From IMG/VR virus record IMGVR_UViG_3300035162_000963, positions 1 through 28,795 of that record: a DNA stretch of 28,795 nt; one strand, 5' to 3'. The notes beneath the pieces were generated by a model, which worked only from the letters and a program-made list of their open reading frames with translations, was not told the DNA's origin and did not search any database. Position 1 is the first letter of the stretch. The number at the start of each line of letters is the position of its first letter. Below, piece after piece: positions 3 to 25,560 of the stretch. The DNA is from a virus. A program made the position numbers and the translations under genes.

Positions 3-962
3 CCACAATTAGCTACACCTGCTGGTCTATTAGAACCTCATAAGATTCAAGCAGCTCTGTCAGAAAGTATGTTGATGGATACACCACAAATACCAGACTA
101 TAGATTGTTTGTTGAGCTATTATTATTGTTGCTCTCAGGCATCCTTACAGCTCTTGTAATTAACTACCTCGGTATCACTAAGGGAGTTATATCATTCTTA
201 GGATTGTTCTCTTTAATGGGATATCTTGAGTATCACTTTGTAAGCTCTAATCTCTTGATAGACTTTACATGGAGCATGATAAGTATGACACTTATTGCTA
301 CCCAACAATTCTATTTAAACTTTAGAACTCAGTTTAAACTTAGACAACAAATCAAGAAACAGTTTGAACATTACCTTGACCCTAGACAGGTTAAAAGACT
401 ACAAGATAATCCGGAGCTTTTGAAGTTAGGCGGAGAACGAAGACGTTGTACGTTTTTATTTACAGACGTGAGAGGCTTTACAAGTTTGTCAGAGAGATTA
501 GAACCTGAAGAGGTTGCAAAGATAATGAATAAGGCACTAACTATACAAGCTAATGCTGTTCAAGAGTATGGCGGAATGGTAGATAAATATATAGGCGATG
601 CAATGATGGCAATCTTTAATGCTCCTATAGACCTTGAAAAACATGAGACCAAAGCAGTCCTAACAGCCCAGAAAATACAACGAGATATGGCAGAAGCTGA
701 TTTAGGAATAGAAATAGGTATAGGAATAAATACTGGAGAAGCTGTAATAGGAAATATGGGAAGCGATACACGATTTGATTATACTGCGATAGGTGATGCT
801 GTTAATTTAGCAGCTAGGTTAGAGAGTTCTACTAAAGTAGTAGGAGAAGATTTAGTTATTGGATACACGACAGCCTTAAATTGTGACATACCTATGAGAT
901 ATTTAGACCCTATTAAGGTTAAAGGTAAGAAAGAAGAGATAATTATATACACAATTAAGTAA
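3..962 (+). CDS. CHASE2-type membrane adenylate cyclase (class III), 5' end outside the window
   Basis: The frame is open to the left edge. The first ATG, at 69, has no clear ribosome site, and the 22 codons before it (ending LATPAGLLEPHKIQAALSES) read like the end of a CHASE2 sensor domain, so the gene starts upstream. Counting from that Met, three hydrophobic segments lie at about 14-34, 38-58 and 62-82, the usual three helices after CHASE2. A class III cyclase domain follows at about 125-297. It has both metal aspartates (D133 in FTDVRGF, D177 in KYIGD), the adenine-specifying K173 and D237 (FDYTAIGD), and transition-state N246 and R250. The residues match ATP-to-cAMP rather than GTP chemistry. 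It should work as a homodimer at the inner membrane with its sensor in the periplasm. The gene converges with the replication operon. A cyclase in a phage genome is unexpected; function is inferred from motifs. Confidence 0.9.
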   Translation, partial: PQLATPAGLLEPHKIQAALSESMLMDTPQIPDYRLFVELLLLLLSGILTALVINYLGITKGVISFLGLFSLMGYLEYHFVSSNLLIDFTWSMISMTLIATQQFYLNFRTQFKLRQQIKKQFEHYLDPRQVKRLQDNPELLKLGGERRRCTFLFTDVRGFTSLSERLEPEEVAKIMNKALTIQANAVQEYGGMVDKYIGDAMMAIFNAPIDLEKHETKAVLTAQKIQRDMAEADLGIEIGIGINTGEAVIGNMGSDTRFDYTAIGDAVNLAARLESSTKVVGEDLVIGYTTALNCDIPMRYLDPIKVKGKKEEIIIYTIK

Positions 963-13409: not shown

Positions 13410-14048
13410 TTAGTGATATATATACGCTATATTAGGTATTGATTTATTCCAGCAGGCATTACAATCGAGACACTTGCCCCCTTGTTCTTTTGACGGGCAT
13501 TTAAAACCTATTATTTCAGAACTTTTGTTTACTGTTGACGTATACTCCCAGCTTTTGGGTGGCTTGCCATCAATCATAGTTGCCGACAGCCTAATTATAA
13601 GGTTATCTGGTAGCTTTTCGCCCAGTTCCTTATATTCTTTATTAAGCATGCTGGCTTCGTGAGTAGGTAGCCAGTGTTTTATTTCAGGCGTTAACTCGCA
13701 GACCTTCACAATTTTTGCAAGCATTCCAGCTTGTAAGTCTCCGCTATCGAACCACCTAAAAATATTCTTATCATTTTCTAAGGCTTGTATCCTAATTAGT
13801 TTCACCATAGCATCAACCCACGCAGGATTATCAATAGCATTTAGTCTTCTAAGTTGGGCAGTTTTAACATTACCATAAAGGTAAGTACCCCGCCTAGCAT
13901 AACATTTATTACAAACTGACCCTTCAACCTTCGCCAATTTAGAACCAGTCTTACATTCAAAAGCAGATATAGAAAAAGAAGCACACCCTAATTTAGATGT
14001 TCGACTTAGACCCCCTCCTGTAATATCAACGGCTGTTATTTTATTCAT
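13410..14048 (-). CDS. GP88-like phage protein, cysteine-rich
   Basis: This 212-residue protein matches, from memory, the phage gene product 88 family: an N-terminal GGGLSRTSKLGC block, SVCNKCYARRG, a central FRWFDSGD (98-104), WLPTHE, then NLIIRLSATMIDG and a C-terminal cysteine cluster. Nine cysteines are visible (22, 32, 46, 49, 117, 184, 193, 196, 199). The CxxCY and CxxCxxC spacings suggest bound metal or an iron-sulfur cluster. The family's biochemical function is not known to me. It overlaps the upstream gene by 8 bases and is separated from the rest of the leftward genes by the regulatory stretch, so it may belong to an accessory cassette with the DUF932 gene across the divergent promoter. 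Confidence 0.75.
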   Translation of the reverse strand: MNKITAVDITGGGLSRTSKLGCASFSISAFECKTGSKLAKVEGSVCNKCYARRGTYLYGNVKTAQLRRLNAIDNPAWVDAMVKLIRIQALENDKNIFRWFDSGDLQAGMLAKIVKVCELTPEIKHWLPTHEASMLNKEYKELGEKLPDNLIIRLSATMIDGKPPKSWEYTSTVNKSSEIIGFKCPSKEQGGKCLDCNACWNKSIPNIAYIYH

Positions 14049-14580: not shown

Positions 14581-14636
14581 CTAAATAAAAACTGAAAATT
14601 TCTATTAACAAATTCATTTAAATGGAGGAACCAAAA

Positions 14637-15578
14637 ATGAATAATATAATTAATATTAATGAACTAGCTAACCCATATGGGGAGGCTGGTTTTAATTGCA
14701 CTATCCAAGAAGCAGGTTATTTTAATAACTTTGGGGCTTGGGTAAAATGTGATGATTCTAAATTTATTGTTAGAGATGACAACGGGCATCCTTTTAAGGC
14801 TGTAGGGAATGACTATCAATTAGTCAATCACCCGCAAGCTTTTGAGACTGCGGAACGTATCATCGAACAATCTAATATAGATACAACTGATATGGTAAAA
14901 GAATTTAAAATTAGCCATGATGGGGCGAGAGCCTTTGGCTTTTATAGATTCCCGCAACATCGTGAAGAGGTAGCACTCAACGACACTATAGAACTTCAAC
15001 TACTAGTTAGAAATTCTATTGATGGGTCTATGAGATTCGCTATTGAATACGGAGCCTTGAGACTGGCATGCCTTAATGGGATGACTGCCTTGGGTTCTAT
15101 TGGTAAGTTTAAAAGAAAACATACTAAGTATTTAAATATCCATGATGCGGTTGAACCACTCACTAACGTTATTGAGTTATATGAGAATAGTATTGAGACG
15201 TGGAAAAAGTTCACGACTACAAAAGTGACTGATACTGAAGCAATACTAGCTATTGCGGACGCTGTAGCTACTAAAGAAATCAATAAATTTATTAAAGATA
15301 ATGTCTCTAATAAGTTTAGCGATGATGTTGAATATCTCTTATGGGATAAACAACTATCTAGAGCCTATCAAGTAAAAGACGTATGGTCTGAATACAAAAA
15401 GTATAGAAACGATTTAGGTTCTACACTTTGGGCGGTATATAACGCTATGACTCACTGGGGTACCCATACTGATGCTTATAAGGAAAGTTCTCAAAAGAAC
15501 ATAGCTAGTATTCAGAATGACCGTAGAACGGCTATAGCAAAAACGACTGATAACTTACTTTTAACGATGGTGGCATAA
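14637..15578 (+). CDS. DUF932 phage/plasmid-like protein
   Basis: The start is put at the ATG at 14637, eight bases after GGAGG; the ATG at 14622 overlaps that site. The 313-residue product fits the DUF932 family: an N-terminal GAWVKCDDSKFIVRDD segment, then YQLVNHPQAFETAERII, DGARAFGFYRFP, an LQLLVRNSIDGSMRFAIEYGALRLACLNGM core, and a helical C-terminus with NALT-type WGTHTD. Members occur on phages and plasmids, where their function is not established; a role in DNA metabolism or host takeover is only inferred. It leads a three-gene + strand unit ended by a strong terminator. Confidence 0.82.
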   Translation: MNNIININELANPYGEAGFNCTIQEAGYFNNFGAWVKCDDSKFIVRDDNGHPFKAVGNDYQLVNHPQAFETAERIIEQSNIDTTDMVKEFKISHDGARAFGFYRFPQHREEVALNDTIELQLLVRNSIDGSMRFAIEYGALRLACLNGMTALGSIGKFKRKHTKYLNIHDAVEPLTNVIELYENSIETWKKFTTTKVTDTEAILAIADAVATKEINKFIKDNVSNKFSDDVEYLLWDKQLSRAYQVKDVWSEYKKYRNDLGSTLWAVYNAMTHWGTHTDAYKESSQKNIASIQNDRRTAIAKTTDNLLLTMVA

Positions 15579-18423: not shown

Positions 18424-18674
18424 AAGAAGGTTATATAAAAAGAGCTACCTCTACAATACCGTTTGGTTATGAGTTATCTGAAGAGTCTAGTTCTTTTTTA
18501 AGACCTATTGAAGACCAGTTAGTAGCTTTAAGCGTAGCAGAATACATGGTTAAAAATGATGAAGTATCTTTAAGAGACGCTGCTGATTGGTTATATGCTG
18601 AGACTAATAGATACATTAGTCATGTAGGTTTAAAAAAATACATAGATAAAAAGATAGAAAAAAATGGTAGTTAA
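18420..18674 (+). CDS. 84-residue helix-turn-helix-like protein ahead of TerL
   Basis: The sequence (TIPFGYELSEESSSFLRPIED, then AEYMVKNDEVSLRDAADWLYAETNRYISHVGLKKYID) resembles the DNA-binding region of serine recombinases (VPFGY... then reaa..L) without any catalytic domain. Such a short HTH unit directly before TerL could serve as a small terminase or its helper. It overlaps the TerL start by 11 bases and the previous gene by 4, so production is coupled to TerL. The alternative is a regulator of late genes. Confidence 0.65.
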   Translation: MKEGYIKRATSTIPFGYELSEESSSFLRPIEDQLVALSVAEYMVKNDEVSLRDAADWLYAETNRYISHVGLKKYIDKKIEKNGS

Positions 18675-20352
18675 TGAGTGGGATATACATCCTGAAAATT
18701 ACTTATTAGATAACAATAATAATTTTATCCTAAAAAAAGACGGGACTCCTAAAAAAAAACCCGGAAGACCTAGCGGTTCTACTTTAAAAAGTAAATTAAT
18801 AACAGATGCTAAAGCAAAAGAATCTGTAAAAAGGTCTTTAAAAAATAAAGAAAAATCAATACAAAAACTTGAAACAGCTTTATATAATAAAAGAAAAGCT
18901 ATAAAAAAACAAAAGAACTTATTGTCTGAAATAGATAGTACAGATAAAAATAGTTCAAAAGTATTTTTAGACAGTGATGTAGAAGAACTCCCAGATACTT
19001 TAAAAGAACATTTAATGAGAGGGAACAATGTAGTTTTTCATGCTAACGAAGGACCCCAAACAGATTTTTTAGCTTCTGGTGAAAAAGATGTTCTTTACGG
19101 TGGAGCTGCGGGCGGTGGTAAATCATATGCTATGATAGTTGACCCGTTAAGATACGCACATAAAAAAGCACATAGAGCTTTGATTATTAGAAGGTCTATG
19201 CCAGAACTAAGAGAGATGATAGATAAGTCTCGTGAGTTATATCCCCAAGCATTTCCCGGTGCTAAGTTTAGAGAAGTTGAAAAGCTTTGGAACTTTCCGT
19301 CAGGTGCCAAGGTAGAGTTTGGATTCTTAGAAAGAGATGCAGACGTATACAGGTATCAAGGACAAGCATATAGTTGGATAGGCTTTGATGAGATTACTCA
19401 TTTACCTACAGAGTTTAGTTGGAACTATCTTGCTTCACGTCTGAGAACTACTGACCCAGAAATACAAACATACCTTCGCTGTACTGCTAACCCCGGCGGT
19501 GTTGGTTCTCATTGGGTAAAGAAAAGATATATAGAGCCAGCAGCAAACAACACAAGTTTTTTAGGTAAAGACGGCTTAACAAGAAAATTTATTCCTGCTA
19601 AGTTAGCCGATAACCCTTACTTATCTACTGACGGTGTGTATGAGCAGATGCTTAAATCTTTACCTCCTATTCAACGTAGGCAATTACTAGAAGGTAACTG
19701 GGATGTAGCTGAAGGAGCTGCTTTTGTAGAGTTCGACCCGTTTCAACATGTTATTACTCCATTTGAATTACCTATACACTGGGAAAGAATAAAAGCAATA
19801 GACTATGGATATGCTTCAGAGTCTTGTTGTTTATGGGGAATAATGGATATGAATGATAACACTTTAATAATTTATAGAGAATTATACAGAAAAGGCTTGA
19901 CAGGTGAAGAATTAGGCGGTATAATAACAGAGATGGAAGCAGAAGATGCTTTTTCTATTAATGGTGTTTTAGACACAGCAGCATGGGCAAAAACAGGAAC
20001 TACAGGTCCAACAGTAGGGGAAGCTTTAGTAAAGGCTGGACACAAGTTAAGAAGAGCTGATAAAAATAGAATACAGGGTAAAATACAAATACACGAGTAT
20101 TTAAAAGTTAGAGAAAATGGTAGACCTAAGTTACAGATATTTAATACATGTCCGAACTTAATAAGAGAACTACAGTCTATACCGTTATCTAAAACTAATC
20201 CAGAAGATGTAGATACACATGCTTCTGACCACGCATATGATGCACTGCGTTATATGATAATGAGCAGACCTAGAATGGAAAGTCCATTAGAACGTATGAG
20301 AGGATTAAAGAGAGAAATGTATAGACCCGTTGATTCAACATTTGGTTATTAA
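18664..20352 (+). CDS. terL: terminase large subunit
   Basis: This 562-residue packaging motor has an ATPase with Walker A GGAAGGGKS (146-154), Walker B WIGFDE (238-243) and a TANPGG coupling motif (274-279), and an RNase H-like nuclease with D380 (AIDYGY), D437 (VLDTAA) and D522/D526 (SDHAYDALRY). It pumps DNA into the prohead and cuts concatemers. The first 125 residues are an unusual extension: an AT-hook-like KKKPGRPSGS (30-39) and a lysine-rich coiled-coil-like stretch (50-90). The start at 18664 overlaps the upstream gene; no clear later start was seen. It is firmly TerL; the subfamily was not determined. Confidence 0.95.
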   Translation: MVVNEWDIHPENYLLDNNNNFILKKDGTPKKKPGRPSGSTLKSKLITDAKAKESVKRSLKNKEKSIQKLETALYNKRKAIKKQKNLLSEIDSTDKNSSKVFLDSDVEELPDTLKEHLMRGNNVVFHANEGPQTDFLASGEKDVLYGGAAGGGKSYAMIVDPLRYAHKKAHRALIIRRSMPELREMIDKSRELYPQAFPGAKFREVEKLWNFPSGAKVEFGFLERDADVYRYQGQAYSWIGFDEITHLPTEFSWNYLASRLRTTDPEIQTYLRCTANPGGVGSHWVKKRYIEPAANNTSFLGKDGLTRKFIPAKLADNPYLSTDGVYEQMLKSLPPIQRRQLLEGNWDVAEGAAFVEFDPFQHVITPFELPIHWERIKAIDYGYASESCCLWGIMDMNDNTLIIYRELYRKGLTGEELGGIITEMEAEDAFSINGVLDTAAWAKTGTTGPTVGEALVKAGHKLRRADKNRIQGKIQIHEYLKVRENGRPKLQIFNTCPNLIRELQSIPLSKTNPEDVDTHASDHAYDALRYMIMSRPRMESPLERMRGLKREMYRPVDSTFGY

Positions 20353-24585: not shown

Positions 24586-25560
24586 ATGGCTCAATTTTTT
24601 GAACCGAGTACTGATACAAACGCCAACTTTGGCAACTCCGTGACAGGACAAACTAATAGTTTCTTCCTACCTTCGGTTTATTCTAAAAAGGTAATGAACT
24701 TTTTTAGGAAAGCCTCAGTAGTAGAAGCTATCACAAACACCGACTATGCCGGTGAGATATCCTCTTTCGGAGACTCAGTAAAAATTATAAAAGAACCAGT
24801 TATTTCAGTGTCAGATTACACAAGAAATAGCGACACAACTGAAACTAGACTAACAGACCAAGAAATTTCTTTGGTTGTTGATAGTGCTAAAGCTTTCAAA
24901 TTCATCGTTGATGATATTGAAACTAATATGTCACATGTCAACTTCAAAGAGATTGCTTCTTCATCAGCTGCTTATGCATTGAAAGATTCATATGACGCTG
25001 CTGTATTAGCAACTATGTTTGCGGGTTGTTCAGCTTCATCACCTAATCACATTTTAGGTGCCGACAATGCTACTGATTTAGCAGCAGGTACTTTTGATGG
25101 AACAGGTAACCTAGATATTGGTTTTGGTTCTAGCGAACACGACCCACTAGACCTAATGGGTAGAATGGCAAGACTATTAGACGAACAGAATGTACCTGAA
25201 GAAGGTAGATGGTTTGTTGCAAGTCCTGACTTCTATGAGATATTAGGACAATCTAGCTCTAAATTACTATCTGTCGACTATAATGGTGGACAAGGTTCTA
25301 TTAGAAATGGACTAGTATCAAGTGGAAAATTACGTGGATTTGATATGTACAAGTCAAACAACATTGCTGCAACATCTAATGCTGCTGGTAAATGTATGGC
25401 TGGTCACATGTCTTCAACTGCTACTGCTAATACTATTCTTTCAACAGAAGTATTGAGAGACCCAACATCGTTTGGTGATATAGTTAGAGGCTTACATGTT
25501 TACGGTGCGAAAGTACTTAGAGACGAAGCCTTAGTAAGTGCATTCTACGGCATTGACTAA
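24586..25560 (+). CDS. major capsid protein (HK97-like)
   Basis: This 324-residue protein follows the scaffold with a good CAGGAG site. Features match HK97-fold capsid proteins of marine podoviruses: an N-terminal arm (SFFLPSVYSKKVMNFFRKASVVEAITNTDYAGE), an E-loop with TRLTDQEISLVVDSAKAFKF, a spine-helix region with IASSSAAYALKDSYDAAVLATMF, and a P-domain ending in a strand-rich FGDIVRGLHVYGAKVLRDEALVSAFY. It builds the icosahedral head. A terminator right after it suggests control of its high expression relative to downstream genes. Confidence 0.9.
   Translation: MAQFFEPSTDTNANFGNSVTGQTNSFFLPSVYSKKVMNFFRKASVVEAITNTDYAGEISSFGDSVKIIKEPVISVSDYTRNSDTTETRLTDQEISLVVDSAKAFKFIVDDIETNMSHVNFKEIASSSAAYALKDSYDAAVLATMFAGCSASSPNHILGADNATDLAAGTFDGTGNLDIGFGSSEHDPLDLMGRMARLLDEQNVPEEGRWFVASPDFYEILGQSSSKLLSVDYNGGQGSIRNGLVSSGKLRGFDMYKSNNIAATSNAAGKCMAGHMSSTATANTILSTEVLRDPTSFGDIVRGLHVYGAKVLRDEALVSAFYGID

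Follow-up and report, generated by a model that had tools for sequence, protein, structure and literature searches.

A CHASE2-type adenylate cyclase as the probable last gene of a curli cassette in an HTVC115P-like pelagiphage

The stretch of viral DNA analysed here (the window; 28,795 nucleotides, IMG/VR record IMGVR_UViG_3300035162_000963) opens at its left edge with the remainder of a gene for a membrane-bound adenylate cyclase, which raises the question of what a phage would do with a sensor-type cyclase. The answer that we consider probable, if not firmly so, is that the gene closes a cassette in the order CsgF, CsgG, curlin, FecR and CHASE2 cyclase, carried as an optional island by an HTVC115P-like pelagiphage and acting as an envelope-to-cAMP relay. 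The cassette in relatives, the domains of the cyclase, its intact active site and purifying selection were read from sequence; from these the remainder of the explanation was inferred.

The open reading frame at 3–962 (+) encodes 319 aa and is open at its 5′ end, at the contig edge. The original prediction had rejected the ATG at position 69 as a start codon, rightly so, as comparison with the starts of relatives put the missing N-terminus at about 258 residues; relatives with 91–97% identity to the window cyclase supply this part. The following features were assigned to the gene:

3–962, + strand: predicted CHASE2 class IIIb adenylate cyclase, C-terminal 319 aa (97% identical to the full-length relative L002:1690-3426)
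3–143, + strand: C-terminal end of the periplasmic CHASE2 domain (PF05226 of the full-length relative ends at about window residue 47)
102–326, + strand: three predicted membrane helices in the stretch from CHASE2 to the cyclase (AlphaFold2 helices 292–339 and 347–379 of L002; hydropathy)
444–956, + strand: predicted class IIIb cyclase catalytic domain (PF00211, residue conservation, model match to 3r5g)

Within this frame PF00211 (Guanylate_cyc) matched residues 148–318 at E 4.5e-19. The metal-binding pair D155 (nt 465–467) and D199 (597–599), N268 (804–806), R272 (816–818) and the base-selecting K195 (585–587) and T261 (783–785) were all present. A Lys + Thr/Ser pair marks class IIIb cyclases and a Lys + Asp pair class IIIa. 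Since the second base-selecting residue is Thr261 (Ser or Thr in relatives), the window enzyme was assigned to class IIIb, and its active-site residues suggest that it would produce cAMP. A complete class III site had been predicted, which held in that every catalytic position is filled, and failed for the supposed adenine-selecting Asp, which is Thr261. Across 42 viral cyclase rows the metal Asp pair, Lys and Arg were invariant and the Asn was kept in 41, Melnitz (QZI94833) being the exception; with HTVC008M (AGE60353) and Melnitz excluded, all six positions (Thr or Ser at the fifth) were kept in 59 viral and bacterial rows. Pairwise dN/dS values of 0.065–0.12 over the membrane-cyclase part indicate that the viral cyclase is under purifying selection.

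No Pfam CHASE2 match was obtained with the fragment alone, too little of the domain lying inside the window. L002, the closest full-length relative among the matches listed, matched PF05226 at E 5.9e-27 as far as the region of window nt 3 to about 143, so that the CHASE2-like sensor noticed earlier was borne out, the window keeping only the domain end; both profile searches originally proposed, for CHASE2 (in L002) and class III cyclases (PF00211), thereby gave matches. Full-length relatives are mostly 576–596 aa long (about 577–596 aa for the whole protein) and are laid out, by PF05226 and the model, as an N-terminal membrane helix, periplasmic CHASE2, three membrane helices and the cyclase. 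Two of the helices after CHASE2 fall inside helix 292–339 of the L002 AlphaFold2 model (window residues 34–81; mean pLDDT of the model 87) and one in helix 347–379 (residues 89–121), in agreement with hydropathy and with the earlier claim of a membrane-bound protein with three helices. In a fold search of this model against solved structures the matches listed were all to the cyclase domain (Pseudomonas aeruginosa CyaB, 3r5g: Z 26.1, 1.5 Å, 177 residues; Spirulina CyaC, 1wc1: Z 25.6), and nothing was told on CHASE2; the cyclase-domain fold is common to these enzymes, whereas their sensor domains differ.

A scan of viral contigs returned at least 599 relatives of the cyclase, of which the best 80 were taken further; this recurrence in related viral contigs, together with viral hallmark genes in the window, upholds the view that the cyclase is phage-borne. 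The window holds none of the upstream cassette genes, and its left flank was deduced from relatives: the leftward extension originally suggested succeeded in so far as relatives at 94–96% nucleotide identity were found, and failed in that an exact overlap with this contig was absent. The order CsgF, CsgG, curlin, FecR, cyclase was found in 42/42 viral loci with at least 4.2 kb upstream, and FecR lay directly upstream of the cyclase in all 62 loci with at least 1 kb upstream, the csgF, csgG, curlin-like and FecR genes running in the direction of the cyclase except in a subgroup of five inverted loci. In L009, for example, Pfam matched CsgF (1.5e-18), CsgG (4.3e-48), FecR (1.7e-11), CHASE2 (4.3e-29) and the cyclase (7.1e-20). 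The curlin gene was called by its position, a signal-peptide-like start and Q-x-G-x-x-N-like repeats; the Pfam Curlin_rpt match to it is weak (0.067, sub-threshold, in L062; 8.6e-6 in Melnitz). By this flank the window cyclase is probably the last member of a phage curli (type VIII secretion) cassette, and the tie to replication genes drawn in the original prediction gives way to one with genes on the opposite, missing side.

The structure model of FecR was poor (mean pLDDT 45). Curlin-like repeats suspected at the FecR C-terminus (motif IQ-G...STITITQ) were rejected, since comparing profiles with that of the phage curlins yielded a probability of 1.7. In five loci (L034, L039, L042, L054, L068) the cyclase is inverted, lying beside and co-oriented with the gene for ribonucleotide reductase (RNR) beta and convergent with FecR-curlin-CsgG, which would place it under different transcription; in two others (L239, L243) FecR and CsgG lie near RNR beta, and a cyclase was not found in the stretch examined. 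As five loci are inverted and two are cyclase-less, the link of the cyclase to the operon is not a strict one.

The phage backbone was identified from the genes to the right of the cyclase:

959–1330, no strand: probable mosaic boundary between cassette and backbone (nucleotide match to L258, L259 and L002 missing here, with both sides matching)
1098–1319, − strand: small gene beside RNR beta, backbone and not cassette (72–80 aa at this place in most relatives)
1312–2289, − strand: RNR beta, backbone flanking the cassette site (PF00268 3.3e-76; 69.7% to HTVC115P)
18664–20352, + strand: terminase large subunit, a hallmark placing the phage with the HTVC115P/HMO-2011 type (64.3% to HTVC115P)
24586–25560, + strand: major capsid protein, a viral hallmark (59.5% to HTVC115P)

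Terminase, capsid protein and RNR beta were nearest to those of Pelagibacter phage HTVC115P, the next-nearest terminase and capsid sequences coming from HTVC103P/104P and other HMO-2011-type phages; terminase, capsid, RNR and gene order all agree with an HTVC115P/HMO-2011-type phage. Of the 39 window proteins, 16 matched HTVC115P (summed 5536 bits) and three HTVC027P, which we take to be an HTVC023P-type phage. At the matching place in HTVC115P, from RNR beta to the structural genes, no annotated curli gene was found, and cultured HMO-2011-type phages gave no cyclase, FecR or CsgG matches. Among 80 loci found via RNR beta, 30 carried the cyclase, 23 had a flank of at least 2.5 kb with neither cyclase nor FecR, two had FecR and CsgG without a cyclase match, and 25 were too short. 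Because the cyclase occurs in 30 of the 53 decidable loci, the cassette was regarded as an optional island, which appears to sit between the lysis/structural end and the RNR genes of an HTVC115P-like pelagiphage.

For pelagimyophages and HTVC023P-type podoviruses, a set of curli genes accompanied by FecR and an adenylate cyclase is on record (Wittmers et al. 2022, PMC9599517), and the notion that such a cyclase is not standard phage cargo has to be given up accordingly. In that study the phage module was found expressed in metatranscriptomes, a histidine kinase always precedes the csg genes, and Pelagibacter is without curli genes. As in the known module, CsgF, CsgG, a curlin repeat protein, FecR and the cyclase form one cassette. 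The loci studied here differ in their HTVC115P/HMO-2011-type backbone, plus one further backbone, and in having one curlin gene, before FecR, with the cyclase directly after FecR in each of the 62 loci. A histidine kinase was not noticed before csgF: the genes just before it in HTVC115P-like loci, only some of which were profiled, encode mostly 93–157 aa, and none was kinase-like. The published text (PMC9599517) does not mention CHASE2, the type to which the cyclases here belong. The presence of the cassette on a further phage backbone as an optional island and the identification of its cyclase as CHASE2 type are added by the present analysis; papers naming HMO-2011 together with curli were not found in a search of literature other than subscription papers and preprints.

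A quick tree search on 84 sequences, which gave long branches, separated all the viral cyclases, together with two from SAR11 bins, from every bacterial cyclase sampled, by a branch with SH-aLRT 94. The sister group consisted of HTVC008M, Melnitz and one SAR11-bin sequence. The HTVC008M and Melnitz cyclases likewise close a curli cassette and combine CHASE2 with a cyclase domain, yet are only 37–45% identical to those studied here; their cassettes have a second curlin gene between FecR and the cyclase, and in Melnitz the Asn and Thr/Ser positions are altered.

A link between FecR and CHASE2 was also sought in bacteria, in 29 genomes picked only by their cyclase. A FecR domain lay within 6 kb of 17 of the 76 CHASE2 matches, against 0.53 expected by random placement, gene pairs being counted and not independent events; this recurrence as a bacterial gene pair is a further result of the analysis. 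Published cases agree. The CHASE2 cyclases of Campylobacterota share their gene clusters with a TPR protein, a phosphodiesterase and an outer-membrane protein of the FecR type (PMC9239204); in Burkholderia, a biofilm operon encodes both a LysM-FecR protein and a CHASE2 kinase (PMC5192318). The CHASE2 cyclases of Sinorhizobium meliloti take their signal via the outer-membrane protein NsrA (PMC13001267), and the targets of Clr there include a FecR-domain protein (PMC5498481). The Campylobacterota pairs and S. meliloti CyaD1/D2/K resemble the phage arrangement in that a CHASE2 class III cyclase either has an envelope protein with a FecR domain in its neighbourhood or receives its input from the outer membrane; they differ in the phosphodiesterase and TPR protein of the cluster, or in the use of Clr/CRP, and the phage cyclase is 26–31% identical to its aligned bacterial relatives. 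On account of the pairing and these cases, FecR is proposed as the link from the envelope to CHASE2, a contact suggested by analogy.

The infected cell would accordingly make a CsgG outer-membrane channel and a curlin fibre. Periplasmic FecR would be the partner that passes the state of the export machinery, or what the machinery meets outside, to periplasmic CHASE2, the putative sensor of that signal, and CHASE2 would in turn control cAMP production in the cytoplasm by the cyclase domain, a dimer. With the cassette, SAR11 cells, which are among the most abundant in the sea, would acquire two things otherwise missing from them, a fibre on the surface and a second messenger under sensor control; as an example of a virus that equips its host with a sensory circuit, the system would be compact and open to testing. 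The FecR-CHASE2 pairing sharpens the annotation 'FecR + adenylate cyclase' into a hypothesis on sensor coupling.

The puzzle is that the likely hosts seem to be without a known cAMP-reading protein. The nearest cultured relatives of the window phage infect SAR11, and by this relatedness SAR11 is the likely host; HMO-2011-type phages also infect SAR116 and Roseobacter. A family of 79 genomes was anchored by two genomes from a larger draw with an exact match to what we take to be the SAR11 16S probe site, no match to it having been found in the first 31 small genomes. PF00027, the profile of cNMP-binding domains, was found in four of the 79 (completeness of the genomes not given), in an Fnr-like frame, on a contig with response regulators and, in two, in long proteins of other kinds. 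The same profile matched 88 of 115 sampled alphaproteobacterial genomes, which shows that the search works, and gave no match over the cut-off in the window, itself a fragment, and 25 related or reference viral records. With PF00027 lacking in the phage records and almost lacking in SAR11-family genomes, the cAMP output step is left without a known receiver. PF00211 exceeded the cut-off in only two of the 79 genomes, both times in phage-type cassettes: L173, located after a FecR end, shares 73.5% identity with the L070 cyclase, and L174 shares 37% with that of HTVC008M. CsgG was confined to the same two bins and the same contigs, G421:C1 (L173, L261) and G457:C11 (L174, L260), probably as phage DNA binned with the host. 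That SAR11-family genomes are without a cyclase or CsgG of their own and without nearly all cNMP-binding receptors is likewise added here. Tentatively, CsgG/curlin, FecR, CHASE2 cyclase and cAMP might thus form a private phage line in hosts that neither make cAMP nor read it by known receptors, which would call for an unrecognised SAR11 or phage receptor, or for another purpose such as a decoy.

A doubtful alternative is that cAMP acts elsewhere altogether, through an unknown host or phage receptor, as a decoy for cyclic-nucleotide defence or as an ATP drain. The near absence of class III cyclases and CRP-type receptors from the hosts, and that of PF00027 from the 25 viral records, would fit; a conserved CHASE2 domain and FecR partner, however, favour regulated signalling over bulk consumption. 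The original prediction had the enzyme possibly raising host cAMP during infection; spelled out, this would make the gene a moron by which the host is reprogrammed via a CRP-type regulator. This is unlikely: the complete active site and purifying selection agree with it, and it would be workable in a host other than SAR11, such as SAR116 or Roseobacter, given how common cNMP-binding domains are among alphaproteobacteria, but the cultured relatives point to SAR11, where PF00027 is rare, and the cyclase travels with curli genes. The observation behind it was confirmed and its interpretation partly supported.

It is very improbable that the gene is a phage-borne Pycsar cyclase making cCMP or cUMP against competing phages. 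PADLOC PycC profiles matched the cyclase core (best 1.8e-30), yet this match is unspecific, PycC having general class III motifs; the Lys + Thr/Ser pair is that of adenylate cyclases, whereas EaPycC has an Arg four residues before the metal Asp (PMC11224242), and a CNBD effector (PycTM/PycTIR) was not found by PF00027 in the window and the 25 viral records. This reading was therefore rejected. A misassembly joining phage genes to a bacterial cyclase, to which the stop in nucleotide similarity between 959 and 1330 might point, was dismissed as practically negligible, because the identical join recurs in many independent contigs and the viral cyclases group apart from all sampled bacterial ones. 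L258, L259 and L002 match window positions 1 to about 958 at 94–96% nucleotide identity and continue into the RNR genes, which settles the suspicion of a chimera at 962–1098 raised earlier; judged by these sequences, the break is a natural mosaic boundary and not an assembly fault.

At the same RNR-beta site, several curli-free relatives carry two other genes on the − strand (L192:6582-9427, L217:4178-7277, L221:7564-11006, L226:8304-11260, L231:1957-4901). The product of the first, about 310–400 aa, starts in the manner of a secretion signal and has long low-complexity stretches rich in Asn and Thr (TNTNTN); that of the second is about 640–750 aa and Glu-rich. Those tested gave no Pfam match. 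The place has the look of a hotspot at which different surface or secreted modules replace one another. A second backbone, uncultured and little like HTVC115P at the protein level, was also seen to carry the cassette (L060, L062, L076, L051, L069); in L060, L062 and L076 the tail proteins had distant phage matches only, and the stretches examined had few proteins in common with HTVC027P and hardly any, or none, with HTVC115P. In the window itself, 13410–14048 (−) and 14622–15578 (+) encode GP88 (PF17338) and DUF932 (PF06067) phage proteins.
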